A DNA stretch of 64,000 bases from Aurantiochytrium sp. KH105 (Eukaryota > Sar > Bigyra > Thraustochytrida > Thraustochytriidae), in the NCBI GenBank assembly GCA_003116975.1, contig BGKB01000023.1, positions 485,151-549,150 on the forward strand, given 5' to 3'. The notes beneath the pieces are model-generated. The model was not told where the DNA came from. It saw nothing but the letters and a program-made list of their open reading frames with translations, and searched no databases. The number at the start of each line of letters is the position of its first letter. Position 1 is the stretch's first letter. Made by a program: the position numbers and the translations under genes. Positions 32,466-50,214 of the stretch are shown in pieces.

Positions 32466-33659
32466 TTAGTCGTAGTAAGTGTTGAAGTCAGGGACGATGT
32501 ACACTTTGTCAAGCTTGCCGTTAAAGGAAATATGCTCGCAATCGCCGCCCTCGTAGCGCAGGTTCTTGATGCTCTGCGCTTTGTAAACTGCCAATCCACC
32601 AAAGCAAGACTTTGCCGGAATTGGGTCGGCATCTCGGTCGTTTGTCTTAATTCTCGTGTATTGCTGGTGATTGCCCCATTCGACGTCAAACTTGGGCGGC
32701 CGAGGCTGGCCTGCAGGAATCTGAAAACTATGCTCCATTTCCTGATCGGTGAAGCGTGTGGCCAAGGAGTCGTACGAGCGACCAAACTTTCCGTTGTCCT
32801 TTCTCACAAAGCTACACGCTTGCTTTCCGACAGATTCCTTGTTACACTCACTGGTAAGCCCGTTTGCGCAGACGAGATCCCAGTCAGAATCGAGTTTCTT
32901 TTTGCCAGCGAGAATGGAGCTCAAGCTCCCTAGCGTTCCTTCGATGCTAATTTTGGCAAGATCAAGGTCAACCATCATGACGAGCGTGTTAGGCTGTGAA
33001 ATTTGAGGAAGCTTCGCGAGTCTATCCATGTAGATATTGCGCAGCTTGGCCATTTTGTAGAATCGTAACGCCGACAATGCGAAATCTCCCGGGAGGGGAT
33101 CAGCAGGGGCGTTGGGGTCCGGCTTTCCATCCATTTTTTCGGAAATGAGCTCTACGAACTCGGGCCTGGACTCGGCAAACGTTGCGAGGCTCTTGTCTGT
33201 GCCATCTTCAGAGTCATTCTCGATAATGATCATTCGAAAACTCTTGAATTTCTTTCCAATCGTCTCCATGGTGGCAAGGTTTGCTGAGAGGGTTTTGTTG
33301 GCGTCTCGCACTAAGGAGCAAACGATCAAATCGTATTTTTCCAGCGTTTTTTCAAGGATTGGATCGTGCATTTCAGGGCCCTCCTCGACTTGAGGTGGCT
33401 CGATCTCCTCCTTTGGGGCTTCCTCAGGTTGATCAGATGGGTTCTCTTCAGAGGGAGGAGCAGCAGATGGGTTCTCTTCAGAGGGAGGAGCAGCATCTGG
33501 TTCATATACTGCTCTGAGGTTTGCTGTGAAGAAGAAGGATGTCTCATCACAGTTGCACGGGGGGCGTTGGGAGAGCAGCACCAAGAGGGCACACACAAGT
33601 ATGGCCATGAGTACGAAAAAGAGCCGCTTGCGATCGACCTTTAGCATGTTGCGCAACAT
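32466..33659 (-). CDS. Putative type II membrane glycosyltransferase, paralogue 1
   Basis: A 397-residue protein. A short cytoplasmic basic start (MLRNMLKVDRKR), then a signal anchor (12-30), a Pro/Glu-rich stem (about 50-100) with an exact 10-residue tandem repeat, then a GT-A-like globular domain. Key features are LIVCSLVRDANKTL, the ENDSEDGTDK motif at 147-156, and MMVDLDL (Asp231, Asp233), a plausible metal-binding DxD. The fold hints (ring of short motifs, Golgi-type topology) resemble cap/O-mannosyl-type transferases, but I cannot assign a GT family. It ends in IVPDFNTYYD, shared with its neighbour. It is followed by a diverged tandem copy on the same strand. Confidence 0.6.
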   Translation of the reverse strand: MLRNMLKVDRKRLFFVLMAILVCALLVLLSQRPPCNCDETSFFFTANLRAVYEPDAAPPSEENPSAAPPSEENPSDQPEEAPKEEIEPPQVEEGPEMHDPILEKTLEKYDLIVCSLVRDANKTLSANLATMETIGKKFKSFRMIIIENDSEDGTDKSLATFAESRPEFVELISEKMDGKPDPNAPADPLPGDFALSALRFYKMAKLRNIYMDRLAKLPQISQPNTLVMMVDLDLAKISIEGTLGSLSSILAGKKKLDSDWDLVCANGLTSECNKESVGKQACSFVRKDNGKFGRSYDSLATRFTDQEMEHSFQIPAGQPRPPKFDVEWGNHQQYTRIKTNDRDADPIPAKSCFGGLAVYKAQSIKNLRYEGGDCEHISFNGKLDKVYIVPDFNTYYD

Positions 33660-34508: not shown

Positions 34509-35612
34509 CTAGTCGTAATAGACGTTGAAATCAGGAACAATGTACACATTGTCGAGTTTGCCATTGACAGACATATGCTCGCAGTCGCCCCCACTGTAAC
34601 GCTTCCCTTGAAGGCTCCGAGCGCGGTACACAGCCACGCCTCCGAAACAAGATTTGACCCGGAGGGGAGGGGCATCCCGGCTGTTTAGTTTGGAGCCGAC
34701 TGCCGCTTCATGCGCCTTCCATCTGTCTCTGTGATTGGGCGGAGCCTCCATTTCGGGCCCGACAGTGAAGCCGTTGTCCATTTCGTCTTGCGTTAACCTT
34801 GTCGCCAAAGAATCGTACGCTCTTCCGGTTTCCCCGTTATCCTTTCTCACAAATTGGCAACTCTCGCTCCCTAGGGCTTGAACGCGGCAATTGCTGACGA
34901 TTCCATTAGCGCAAACGAGGTCCCAGTCCATGCGCATGTCCTTGCCTTGAGAGAGAATTGCACTCAAACTCCTGAGCGTATCGTTGATGGGAATGCTCTT
35001 GAGGTCCAGGTCGACAATTGCCACCAGAGTGTTTCGTTTCGACATTTGCGGCAAGGTGTCGAGAACATCCACGTAAAGGTTTCGCAGAACAGCCATTTTG
35101 TGAAATCTCAGCGCAGAGAGGGGAAAGTCATCGTGGTTTAGAGGGGGGGCTGGCATGCTGGGGTCCTGTGACATCTCTTCCTCCATCTTTCGAGAGATGA
35201 GACGTACATGTTCCTCTCTCCTTGTGACCCAGCTTGCAAGCAGCTTATCTGTGCCATCCTCGGAGTCATTCTCCACAATGATAAAGTAGGAGCTCTTGAA
35301 GGCTTTTGCGATTACTTCAAGTGCTCTCAGGTTCGGGAGAGTGGTTGAGGCTGAATCGCGCACGAGCGTGCAAATGATTAGCTCATACTCTTCGAGAATA
35401 TCAGTGCGAATGGGCTGCTTCTCCTCCTCAATTGTGTCTACTCGTGTTGGTGTTTGTCGCAACGATGTGGCAGTGGCATCTTGGTCGCAATTGCAAACAT
35501 ATTGTGCGGAGAGAAGAAGGAGCGCTGTAATAGGCAACAGGAGCAGGACAAAGGTCTGTCGAATGTTCAGGCGAGGACAAGACACCCGAAGGCTCGTCAC
35601 CTTTCGGAGCAT
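34509..35612 (-). CDS. Putative type II membrane glycosyltransferase, paralogue 2
   Basis: A 367-residue protein when started at 35612 (MLRKVTSLRV), which aligns with the start of paralogue 1; an upstream in-frame ATG at 35711 would add 33 basic residues. It has a signal anchor (FVLLLLPITALLLLSAQYV), a shorter stem than its sister without the tandem repeat, and the same motifs: LIICTLVRDSASTTLP, ENDSEDGTDK, IVDLDLKSI, DWDLVCANGI, VRKDNG.xGRxYDSLATR, KSCFGGVAVYRA and the ending IVPDFNVYYD. The two proteins are clearly a local duplication that has diverged across the whole length. It is likely Golgi-resident; acceptor and donor unknown. Confidence 0.6.
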   Translation of the reverse strand: MLRKVTSLRVSCPRLNIRQTFVLLLLPITALLLLSAQYVCNCDQDATATSLRQTPTRVDTIEEEKQPIRTDILEEYELIICTLVRDSASTTLPNLRALEVIAKAFKSSYFIIVENDSEDGTDKLLASWVTRREEHVRLISRKMEEEMSQDPSMPAPPLNHDDFPLSALRFHKMAVLRNLYVDVLDTLPQMSKRNTLVAIVDLDLKSIPINDTLRSLSAILSQGKDMRMDWDLVCANGIVSNCRVQALGSESCQFVRKDNGETGRAYDSLATRLTQDEMDNGFTVGPEMEAPPNHRDRWKAHEAAVGSKLNSRDAPPLRVKSCFGGVAVYRARSLQGKRYSGGDCEHMSVNGKLDNVYIVPDFNVYYD

Positions 35613-36830
35613 TGCGGTCACTCTGCTAATTTGCGCGCGTTGCGGCGTGCTGCGCACGCTGAGCTGCAGTTTTGGGCACAACGCGCGTCTGCTTCTCGAT
35701 CGGTCACCCACCTATCAAAAGAGCCGCTGCCTTACGCCTGTGGGCCCGTCTTGTCTTCCAGCGTGCGCGTCGCCCGAGTTGCGTCACCCTCTCGGCGTCT
35801 TTGCGCCCAGCGCGAGCTGACGGCGCGCGCGGACTCCACGCCAGGACCGCGATACGCTTTTGCTAAGCCGGCCCGCCGCGGCGCCACGTCAACAAACACT
35901 AGCAGTACTATAGGCCTAGCGAACAAAAGCTGAAAATAGGTATAGTATAGGCCTTTAAAAAATTGTGTGCACACTGGATTGTGTGTAGTAGTAGTAGTAT
36001 TGACCGTGAGGGCTCGAGACATATTGGACACTCAAGCACTGTCAGTCAGCAGTTTCTGCGGAGTGGTGGTGATAGCTGGGCAATGTGTATAAGCGATTCG
36101 CTGGCACGAATGCGTAGCTCAGAGCTGGTGTTTTCCGTCAACTTATACTGTTGCCAACGTGACAAAGCCAGCAAGCAGCCGAGTGTCGTTCTCAGGAAGG
36201 GGGCTATGGAACCGGAACACCGAAGCCGAGTCCATGTCGTGGCTGACTACTTTTCCTCGCGGCCAGCTGCGGTCACATGACTCGTGTAGTCTCCTCATCT
36301 AGGTCAATTCGTCTTTCCGGACACTTGCATCCAAGTCATTAGCCACAGCCATGATCCCGCCACTGGTTTGTTTTCCTGTTGCGGCCACTGTAGCAGCATC
36401 CGCGTCGCCGCTAAATAGCTTTCCCCTGCATTCGTGCAAACCTGTGCATCTCGGATTGTGCGTCTCACTCAGCATTCTCGCACTTACTTTGTTTTGCATC
36501 CACTTTTTCATCGAGGCCCCAAAGCGTCACTTGCTGTATGGATGGTCTTGAGCAGCAGAAAGCAACAAGAAGAAGAAGAAGAAAAAGAAGAAGAAGAAAA
36601 AGAAAAAGAAGCAGAACAAAAACGTTGGCCAGCACAGGCAGAGAGAGACCCAACCCAAGCCCACGAAGGCAAGCCCAAGACGGCGAGCGTACGGGTTCGA
36701 GCCGGCCCTGAGCGTGCGCGAGCGAAGCAAACGCTGTAAGACGCAACGGCTCGAGCCTGCCGAGCAGCAAGGCGTCCATCCTCTAGCGTCCGGAGCGGGC
36801 GCAGGCACGCGACTGAAAGATCAACCAACG
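35613..36830. promoter_or_regulatory. Divergent upstream region of paralogue 2 and TRIP13
   Basis: Contains TAGGCCTA-type motifs at 35911 and 35948, a GTAGTAGTAG run near 35985-35997 and a GAA-rich tract (about 36568-36612). A 66-residue hydrophobic frame at 36351-36551 has no support beyond being open. No gene called. Confidence 0.4.
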
Positions 36831-38276
36831 ATGGCGGAGGCCGCAGTCAAACTGGCGCATGTGGAGATTTGCCTGACCCGCGAGGCGGCGGGCGTGAGTA
36901 AGGCGAACCGCGAGGAGATTGCACGTACGGTGGAGCACGCTCTGCGAACTCAGCTGGACATGGTACACCCAGAAACCAAAGTTTCCTTAAGTTGCTTGAC
37001 GCTAGCGCCAGATGTTGCCAACTGCATCCGAGACATAGTTGTGGATTGCGAGGAATCGTGCCCCTGCTGGAATGCGCAATTTGTCACGCACGTGTTTGCT
37101 CTCCATGAAGAGGGATCGTACGACGAGACGACGGAGGACGACCCTACTTCGACGGTTTTCACGCATTGGGAGCTACCAGCCCAACAATTCCACGGGCTCT
37201 GGGAGAGTCTTGAATATGAGGCCGGCATCAAACCCCATCTCTTGGAGTTTGCCTCGACTTCGCTCTTGTTCTCGTCGCGCCAGGTGGACCACAATCTGAT
37301 TTCTTGGAATCACGTGGTGCTTTTGCACGGACCGCCAGGCACGGGCAAGACCTCACTCTGTCAGGCGATGGCCCAGAAGCTCAGCGTTCGTCTGTCCAGT
37401 ACCTTTGCGCGTGCAGAGCTTCTCGAAGTCAACTCGCACAGTCTCTTTAGCAAGTGGTTTTCAGAGTCCGGGAAGCTAGTGTCCAAATTGTTTTCTTATA
37501 TTCATGAGTTAGCAGAGGACGAAGAGACGCTCGTGTGCATTCTCATTGACGAGGTGGAGAGTCTGGCTGCTGCTCGCTCGGCCTCCATGAATGGATCGGA
37601 GCCCTCGGACTCGATTCGCGTCGTCAATTCACTGCTCACACAGCTTGATCGGCTCAAGGTAAGTTTGACTTGTCAATGGCAGAAACGCTCGTCCATCTCT
37701 TTCTACGTGTCCGCGCGCGGAAAAAGGAAAAGAAGAGAAGAACGCACTCGTTTCGAATATGTCTTCAAGAGTCTCACGCCGATTTGTGCGCGAGCTTGGC
37801 TGGGCGGTTCATGAACTAACTACCCCACACGTTCGCTTTGCTGGAAAAATGTAATCGCACAGTCACGCAAAAATGTCATCGTGCTGACCACGAGCAACAT
37901 TACCGAAGCCATCGACGTGGCATTTGTGGACCGCGCCGACATTCGACAGTACATTGGCTTGCCGGTGGAAAGCGTGCGGCGAAGCATTCTTCGATCCTGC
38001 ATCGTCGAGCTCCAGCGTGCCGGCGTCGTCGCGCAGGACGAATTGAGCGCAGAGGCTGAGAGTGCGCTCGACGACTGCGCGAGGGCCACACATGGTCTCA
38101 GCGGTCGTGGTCTGCGCAAGCTACCTTTTCAGGCGCACGCTCGTTTTATTCGGTCGACAAAACCTGCAAGTCTTGTTGGTTTTCTTCGCGCTATTCATGA
38201 CGCTGCCAGGGCGGAAGCGGCCTCGTCGGTAGCGGCCTCCGCGGCCACGTCGACTGCGCCAGTGAGTGCAGCGTGA
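36831..38276 (+). CDS. TRIP13: TRIP13/Pch2 AAA+ ATPase (two exons)
   Basis: Exon 1 is 36831-37658, the intron 37659-37862, exon 2 37863-38276; joined in phase 0 they give 413 residues, against 432 in human. The N-terminal adaptor-like domain is followed by [17 protein letters not shown]-type sequence (THWELP), Walker A GPPGTGKT (167-174), the sensor segment [18 protein letters not shown]-like ([16 protein letters not shown]), Walker B ILIDEVES with Asp240/Glu241, then in exon 2 [30 protein letters not shown] and the Arg-finger-side [20 protein letters not shown]13 is a ring ATPase that unfolds HORMA proteins (Mad2, Rev7, meiotic axis Hop1 type) in checkpoint, repair and meiosis. The start at 36831 is the Met that fits the family N-terminus; an upstream in-frame ATG at 36714 is leader. 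Confidence 0.93.
37659..37862 (+). other. Spliceosomal intron in TRIP13
   Basis: 204 nt. Donor GTAAGT, branch-like CTAAC at 37816-37820, acceptor CAG ending at 37862. Splicing at these sites restores the conserved [17 protein letters not shown] junction. It is the only convincing intron in the window. Confidence 0.88.
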
Positions 38277-48456: not shown

Positions 48457-48773
48457 TCAGGCCGGGGTGCTGGCGAAGTCGGCGCGCAGCAGCACCGCGC
48501 GCTCCCCGTCGGCGAAGGGGAAGCCGTGCTCGTCGAAGAGCCGCGTGTACAGGAGCGTGAGCACAAGCGGAGGGTTGCGGTCCGCAACGAGGCGGTCGCA
48601 AAGAGATTTACGCACGTGCGTGGGGGCAAGGTCCGCAGGGAGCAAACCGCAAACTAGCTCCGCAAGGCGAGCGCCGGCGACCTCGACACGCAACGAGCTG
48701 CTTGCATTGCGCGGATGACGGCGATTGTCGCCTGCATAGACCCAGGCCTTGGCAAATTGCCACGAAGAAGAAG

Positions 48774-48805
<32 letters not shown>

Positions 48806-50214
48806 GAAGAAGAAGTAGAAGAAGAAGAGCCCTGGGCCGGGGCCACAATGGGGCCCTCCACGGGACCGTGAATCCGCGCTGTGACCTGGACAAGGGCTTC
48901 GCGCAGACCTTTGGTCGCGCGCAAGGTTGCAATGGATCGGAAGAATCGCGGAGGGGTCGTGACGCGGACTAGCGGCCGCGTGCTCGCGTCCCAGGCAAAA
49001 ACCTCGTTCCCAAAGACCTCATTGAGACATATACACTCGCGACGATAGCTGTATATAACGCGACACTTGGAGAATACAATCCGTGTCCCGCTATCGCGCA
49101 TGCGCTCAAGGTATGCAATGTGCTCTTCGCTGGCCTTTTCACCCCACAGCTGCACTTGACCTTGCACTCCTTGTTCTCCATTTGCAGGAGGCGCAAAAGA
49201 AGCATCAGGGGCGTGGGAAATGGTGACCGGCTGCTGGTCTTGCAATGTCACGAGTGCCATCCGACGTCGCGGGTTTCTCCCATGCACTGAGATGGAGACC
49301 ACACGGCCGGCCACGGCCACGAGGTTCTCCAGACGATGGGATTGCAGGACCGCTGCCAGCGTCTCGACCTCGTTGCCTCGAGCGATTGCAGCGCCCGCTC
49401 CGCGAAGGTGACGTTTTGGAGATCGATTGGCTACTTCCTGCTGAGACTTGAGGTTGGGGTGCATGCGGTGAAACTCGTCGCGCAGGCGTTCAGCGTCGGC
49501 AGCCGCTACGCCTGCCCAGTGCTGAAGCATCTTGCGCAGACGCTCTGTCTCGTGCAAGACTTGAACGCAGTCACTCACCTTGCCGATGAAACCAACAACC
49601 TGATGATCCTTTGTGCGAAAGAAGACGTTGCGAAGAAATACGACACTTCCCGGTTTGGCACGGTCGCGTGCCCAAACCGAGGCGCCATGAGTTAGGACGA
49701 TGGGCAGAAATTGACTCGTCGTGTCGCCAACTTGAAGACTCCAGCGTTGCGGGCCGCAAGGCTGCGCTGCGAGGACAACACACAAGGTGGAAGCGAACAT
49801 GTTGGCCCGCGCTTCGGCGAGTTTGAATGCAAAGGGCGACTCTCCAGGTCGTTGTGCGCGAGGCAGTTGGTCAGTGGGGGACGCTTGCGAAGGATTCGCG
49901 CTTGGACCCGAGAGCTCCCGGCTGGGATGGGAAGCCTGACCATTCTGGCCATCTGAGTATGCCGTGAGGTCGTCCACCGATGCCTTTTCGTCGACCGGCG
50001 AGGCATCCTGCCGCAGGCTCGTCGAGGTGGCTCTTGAGGTTGCAGTTGTCGCGGGCGAGAAGGCCTCGTTTCGGGGTCTTTTGCGCGCGGTCTGTGCACC
50101 CGCTTGAGCTGTGTCCTCGCCTGGCGCATCGATCTCGGCCTGGGCGGCAGTCCACTCCCAGGCATCGACGCGCAGCTCCTCCTCTTGCGTCAGGCCTCGT
50201 GGTGGGCTCGACAT
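48457..50214 (-). CDS. Three-OB-fold protein, Shieldin-2 (SHLD2)-like C-terminal architecture
   Basis: A 585-residue protein from ATG 50214 (an upstream in-frame ATG at 50379 adds Gly-rich leader). The first 120 residues are disordered. Then three OB-like segments follow: about 130-215 (ending VVFLRNVFFRTKDHQVVGFI), about 300-410 (VAVAGRVVSISVHGRNPRRR, QVQLWGEKASEEHIAYL, IVFSKCRVIYSYRRECICLNE), and about 440-585 (LVQVTARIHGPVEGPIVAP, a Ser tract of about 22 interrupted residues, LRVEVAGARLAELV, then NPPLVLTLLYTRLFDEHGFP). The order and the C-terminal helix-strand ending are as remembered for human SHLD2, which binds ssDNA and limits end resection, except that the zinc-binding insertion of its last OB-fold is missing. 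An RPA- or MEIOB-like origin is also possible. The Ser tract is encoded by a GAA microsatellite. Confidence 0.5.
48765..48830. repeat. GAA microsatellite inside the OB-fold gene
   Basis: GAA-type repeat that reads as a poly-serine tract on the coding (minus) strand. It is in frame, so length changes leave the gene open. Confidence 0.8.

Follow-up and report, generated by a model that had tools for sequence, protein, structure and literature searches.

The window, meaning the whole stretch of 64,000 nucleotides analysed here (Aurantiochytrium sp. KH105, assembly GCA_003116975.1, contig BGKB01000023.1, positions 485,151-549,150), carries on its minus strand an intronless open reading frame of 585 amino acids, with a start methionine at 50214 and a stop at 48459-48457 (Table 1, in window coordinates). 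This frame is a real, conserved coding gene. Two copies lie in the genome searched (76 Mb, 367 contigs), one in the window and one on contig C45 (L002), with 97% amino-acid identity. The two copies are probably alleles, since their nucleotide likeness spans the entire 4.7-kb locus. The single indel between them inside the frame is a 15-bp, in-frame one in a poly-serine tract. Outside the frame, 18 of 21 indels are frame-breaking (a count that leaves out two at the ends of the compared stretch), including the nearest on each side, which lie 31 bp ahead of the ATG and 46 bp past the stop. Because frame-breaking indels occur only outside it, the frame can be taken to start at 50214 and needs no intron. 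The differing codons comprise 28 synonymous and 18 non-synonymous ones (dN 0.015, dS 0.068, dN/dS about 0.22). The same window encodes, as had been predicted, a TRIP13 homologue (36714-37814, plus strand; AAA E 5e-21, TRIP13_N E 2.3e-5 and 24.9 bits for a cut-off of 27). It also holds two adjoining minus-strand genes of the CAP59 mannosyltransferase family (32466-33659 and 34509-35711), perhaps a tandem duplicate.

Table 1. Features of the 585-residue protein and its gene, in window coordinates
Feature	Position	Strand	Basis
Gene, 585 aa, intronless	48457..50214	-	Open reading frame, indel pattern, dN/dS
Residues 1-119, hydrophobic-poor, probably disordered, unlike the SHLD2 N-terminal REV7/SHLD3-binding segment	49858..50214	-	Composition, alignment
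Candidate OB-A, residues 120-222	49549..49857	-	POT1PC E 0.0035; MEIOB half-domain gain of about 15 bits; SHLD2 OB-A z 4.0
Candidate OB-B, residues 275-432, carrying an insert of some 25 residues	48919..49392	-	VQLWGE motif; RPA1 half-domain gain of 15-19 bits; SHLD2 OB-B z 4.6
Poly-Ser tract, residues 463-484, length differing between copies	48763..48828	-	15-bp in-frame indel
Candidate OB-C, residues 485-585, after the poly-Ser tract	48460..48762	-	MEIOB OB-C z 3.8 (provisional MEIOB sequence); SHLD2 OB-C z 2.6

The original prediction saw in this protein a relative of shieldin-2 (SHLD2) outside animals, with three OB-like segments and a SHLD2-like C-terminal ending, and lacking the zinc-binding insertion of the last OB-fold. 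The absence of the insertion is borne out: there is no CxxC in the entire protein and only two cysteines follow residue 433, hence no zinc ribbon. The poly-serine tract, encoded by a trinucleotide repeat, appears to occupy the place where an RPA1-type OB-C carries that ribbon.

Unaided searches gave little. With the whole protein and six sub-segments as queries, no Pfam family reached its cut-off; REPA_OB_2, Rep_fac-A_C and OB_MEIOB_N had no match in either, nor had Rep-A_N, PF16900, PF08646 or PF02765 in the protein. SHLD2_OB1, OB_SHLD2_2nd and SHLD2_C were absent from the protein and its six segments at E<=10, a range in which the HMMER filters drop most matches above 0.1. The best OB lead was POT1PC, at 17.7 bits for a cut-off of 27.2, over 23 residues of OB-A. 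Searches of the PDB, with phmmer on the single sequence and with a profile, returned no OB match. In single-sequence hhalign the highest probability was 3.3%, for an out-of-order alignment with SHLD2, and a piece of myosin reached 2.4%. BLASTP found nothing against MEIOB or the genome's own RPA1; against SHLD2, its best stretch (E 0.009) was out of order and the second (E 0.029) paired OB-A with OB-A. No profile search gave the protein a firm place in RPA1 or MEIOB, so the assignment that had been named as refuting the SHLD2 idea did not occur. No homologue from related protists turned up in the collections scanned, and no relative was confirmed in viral and prokaryote contigs. AlphaFold2 models built for residues 110-585 and for residues 120-232, the second copy being the only relative, had pLDDT values of 32 and 39 and no visible OB-fold; built from two near-identical sequences and without a control, they weigh neither way. 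The three OB-folds are candidates, inferred only, because structure prediction failed.

Since the HMMER filters drop weak matches, chimeras were used, in which a half-domain of the protein was completed with the missing half from a known family member and its score compared with those of shuffled, reversed and homologous halves; the joints were picked by eye, so that these tests favour the real sequence over the shuffles. On OB_MEIOB_N, the OB-A half scored 98.8 bits (RPA1 98.0, POT1 93.0, SHLD2 86.3, reversed 85.7, 4 shuffles 82.4-83.8). On REPA_OB_2, the OB-B half scored 63.9 bits (MEIOB 54.2, SHLD2 54.0, POT1 50.1, reversed 45.5, 4 shuffles 44.5-49.0). OB-A and OB-B would accordingly be read as acting like RPA1-type OB halves. 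OB-C is the weakest of the three candidates, with no gain on Rep_fac-A_C either as an anchor (46.2 bits; 4 shuffles 46.3, SHLD2 46.3, POT1 51.1, MEIOB 61.7) or in the tail (100.1 bits vs 99.7-102.7 for 6 shuffles). The three predicted OB-like segments therefore survive in part: A and B gain 15-19 bits over 4 shuffles on MEIOB and RPA1 halves, with no Pfam cut-off reached and no RPA1-context gain for OB-C. An unfiltered local profile of the A-B region points the same way when made from RPA1, MEIOB and SHLD2, 4/400 shuffles and 1/400 block shuffles reaching the real score. Profiles made without SHLD2 were weaker: RPA1 alone was equalled or exceeded by 9/400 and 8/400 shuffles, and RPA1 plus MEIOB by 27/400 and 16/400.

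The reading preferred here, with a probability of roughly 0.55, is that of a fast-diverging, lineage-specific RPA1-type triple-OB protein binding single-stranded DNA. Behind a disordered N-terminal tail would come three OB-folds, arranged A-B-C as in RPA1, MEIOB and SHLD2, and a serine linker would take the place of the OB-C zinc ribbon. On the analogy of these three proteins, the OB-folds would bind single-stranded DNA, OB-C and the N-terminal tail being the likely protein contacts, and the role may lie in repair, recombination or end protection. The folds, the DNA binding and the pathway are all inferred from this analogy. The genome has separate genes for RPA1 (L003) and for a POT1 homologue (L007); its REPA_OB_2 and Rep_fac-A_C matches fall on the RPA1 gene, and its PF02765 matches on L007 and L008. 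Another diverged RPA1 paralogue would be one more lineage-specific single-strand binder, interesting and unsurprising.

The original assignment, a true SHLD2 relative outside animals whose OB-folds would coat single-stranded overhangs at breaks and act with REV7 to stop resection, is supported by pairwise comparison. Residues 120-585, with the poly-serine masked, were compared with five OB proteins: SHLD2 (the human sequence, validated), MEIOB, two RPA1 sequences and the genome's own POT1 homologue. Among these five, SHLD2 is the sole one with clear full-length similarity. In local BLOSUM62 alignment, SHLD2 gave z 5.5 at gap penalties of -8/-1 (0/3000 shuffles), 6.2 at -14/-0.1 (2/3000) and 5.6 at -12/-0.1 (0/3000), but only 3.1 at -11/-1 (51/3000), where the best semi-global alignment was also out of order. 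Block shuffles of SHLD2 gave z 4.7 (-8/-1; 2/3000), 2.9 (-11/-1), 5.5 (-14/-0.1; 0/3000) and 4.9 (-12/-0.1). Fitted p values for the local alignments lie between 1e-4 and 1e-2, and z across 12 settings was 2.3-5.6. With six more combinations of matrix and gap penalties, SHLD2 had z 3.3-5.5, against 2.9 or less for MEIOB, POT1 and both RPA1s; a set of 16 other genome proteins had z of 2.2 or less against the 585-residue protein. With PAM250, one of these 16 reached z 4.9 against SHLD2 itself. At a gap opening of -16 the SHLD2 z fell to 4.1, and at -18 to 2.4, while an unrelated protein reached 4.6 against the 585-residue protein. With domain boundaries set by eye, A paired with A (z 4.0), B with B (4.6) and C with C (2.6), cross pairs remaining at 2.1 or less; z summed over domains was 5.8-6.7 for SHLD2. 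RPA1 and POT1 were at chance level with their A, B and C counterparts and in their domain sums. In the optimal OB-B alignment with SHLD2 the two LWG motifs were out of register; they came into register, at z 3.1, only after the OB-B insert was dropped, so the pairwise signal is statistical and not cleanly structural.

The SHLD2 family profiles do not set this protein apart from RPA1. On SHLD2_OB1, the second half scored 115.2 bits (MEIOB 117.0, POT1 113.3, RPA1 110.3, reversed 110.1, 5 shuffles 109.1-112.3), the first half 83.6 (RPA1 92.5, MEIOB 80.8, POT1 78.3, reversed 78.5, 5 shuffles 76.9-79.5) and the first strand 175.9 (RPA1 179.2, reversed 172.9, MEIOB 171.7, POT1 167.3, 5 shuffles 167.4-171.0). 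The second half of OB_SHLD2_2nd gave 81.6 bits (RPA1 81.7, MEIOB 80.5, POT1 73.5, reversed 73.0, 5 shuffles 70.7-72.4), and its first half showed no gain, with 60.1 vs 58.5-63.0 for shuffles, or 65.5 vs 63.6-66.4 minus the insert. On SHLD2_C, the second half scored 100.9 bits (POT1 100.6, MEIOB 99.6, reversed 98.8, RPA1 98.2, 5 shuffles 98.0-99.3) and the first strand did not gain (259.1, RPA1 259.1, shuffles 258.3-260.6). Summed over six pieces (both halves of OB1, both halves of OB2, the first strand of C and the C tail), the gain over shuffle means was +26 bits, vs +24 for RPA1, +18 for MEIOB and +4 for POT1. The ends of OB-A and OB-B gained nothing on the profiles, and PIxAxQ and RVV stretches noticed by eye as possible SHLD2 marks received no credit from them.

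The tail is, weakly, the sole piece in which this protein alone seems to gain on the SHLD2 profiles. Its last 35 residues scored 222.6 bits on SHLD2_C, against 215.3-217.3 in 9/9 controls (a gain of 6 bits), and 222.3 vs 215.3-217.2 on repetition with 6 new shuffles. In a larger test with 49 new shuffled tails, five to a query and with the top-scoring stretch alone reported for each, the query holding the real tail scored 336.7 bits and nine all-shuffle queries 321.6-335.6. The real tail reached profile position 157 and one of the 49 shuffled tails position 155, so that chance nearly matches a gain that would otherwise look SHLD2-specific. The letters of the predicted SHLD2-like ending are present, and they recall SHLD2 weakly.

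Genome-wide searches with SHLD2_C (PF15793), OB_SHLD2_2nd (PF22779), SHLD1_C, OB_MEIOB_N and POT1PC were empty at E 10. Little follows from this, since none of the five profiles rose above its cut-off in a control genome, and POT1PC overlooked two genes that hmmscan recognises, the 585-residue one and that of the POT1 homologue. A human SHLD2 query against the genome was likewise empty and did not recover the 585-residue gene either. SHLD1 was thus not found with a profile whose control was also silent. Residues 1-125 did not align with the N-terminal REV7/SHLD3-binding segment (as in 6kto_D; z -0.6 and -0.2). In favour of the SHLD2 reading, a REV7-like HORMA gene is present (tblastn E 8.7e-5), though absent from the Pfam HORMA matches at E 0.01, and REV7 would serve polymerase zeta too. 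The REV7-like protein (L019 on C129, L020 on C61) has 307 amino acids in L019 and an extended acidic tail whose last residues are DYSPLE. The nearness of TRIP13 has little weight, since TRIP13 also serves MAD2 and Hop1-type HORMA proteins, and candidates for both are in the genome. These are a MAD2 gene (L009) and a seemingly intron-split Hop1-like HORMA gene (L012 on C49, and C90), all named by eye.

SHLD2 is described as having three OB-folds and a zinc ribbon, with orthologues found by BLAST in vertebrates only, and MEIOB as occurring in most metazoans and Capsaspora and not in fungi or plants (PMC6003645, PMC11377751, PMC6138439, PMC3778009, PMC11616998); the ribbon of SHLD2 OB-C is a four-cysteine one (PMC6003645). 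Titles and abstract openings among the literature matches listed report no protist SHLD2. A SHLD2 relative here, which seems unlikely, would be a zinc-less form in a protist far from animals that lacks the known REV7/SHLD3 contact at its N-terminus and may do without SHLD1. SHLD2 membership thus keeps its pairwise likeness and its A-A and B-B pairing and loses on the Pfam profiles, the RPA1-equal gain and the missing ribbon and N-terminus: the protein resembles SHLD2 slightly above chance, short of being named as SHLD2. If it were a true SHLD2, the origin of shieldin's resection block would lie outside animals (Tomida et al.), and its OB-fold arm would be older than the animal lineage.

It is less probable still that the protein is MEIOB-like, or another meiotic RPA1 paralogue acting on resected meiotic ends. 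OB-C aligned with MEIOB OB-C at z 3.8 (2.0-4.4 by gap setting; MEIOB OB-C sequence provisional), compared with 3.7 for OB-A of the genome's own RPA1 and 2.6 for SHLD2 OB-C. The MEIOB domain sum (2.9-3.4) is second to that of SHLD2, the MEIOB profile rewards OB-A more than SHLD2_OB1 does, and TRIP13 together with the Hop1-like gene suggests a meiotic toolkit. On the other hand, OB_MEIOB_N has no match in the protein or, with a silent control, in the genome, pairwise z falls to 1.6 for OB-A and 0.2 for OB-B, and neither an NPDIPEA-type end of OB-B, judged by eye, nor a zinc ribbon is present.

Chance likeness in an alanine- and serine-rich protein that is not OB at all would fit the lack of any unaided family match above cut-off and the failed structure models, but is very improbable given weak OB-A and OB-B signals, in the right order, from the POT1PC, MEIOB, RPA1 and SHLD2 models. 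A second POT1/TEBP-type telomere protein is the most improbable reading: the POT1PC lead in OB-A, the only unaided one, approaches the 18.6 bits of the genome's own POT1 homologue, yet just 23 residues match, the A-A, B-B and C-C comparisons with that homologue are at chance, and it is the better POT1 candidate. That homologue (L007 on C66, L008 on C103; PF02765 31.6 bits genome-wide) shows, by eye, what look like three OB segments without a zinc-binding insert.

Set beside known systems, the RPA1-type triple-OB protein favoured here shares with POT1 the weak POT1PC match of OB-A, and differs in lacking a PF02765 match and in coexisting with a separate POT1 homologue. With MEIOB it shares the OB-C alignment (provisional MEIOB sequence) and the OB-A gain on OB_MEIOB_N, but not an unaided match to that profile, a zinc ribbon or an OB-B above chance. 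To SHLD2 (FAM35A) it is likened by a disordered N-terminus followed by three candidate OB segments, by the best full-length pairwise match with A and B correctly paired, and by a helix-like stretch seen by eye after OB-A. It differs in lacking the ribbon, the REV7/SHLD3-binding N-terminus and SHLD2 profile matches, and in an N-terminal tail of about 120 residues, against about 420 described for SHLD2 (PMC6003645). From RPA1 (RPA70) it departs by the missing Rep-A_N, PF16900 and PF08646 matches and zinc ribbon, by chance-level pairwise scores and by the existence of the organism's own RPA1, while the order of the OB segments, the LWG motif in OB-B and a similar total gain on the SHLD2 profiles recall its DBD-A, -B and -C.
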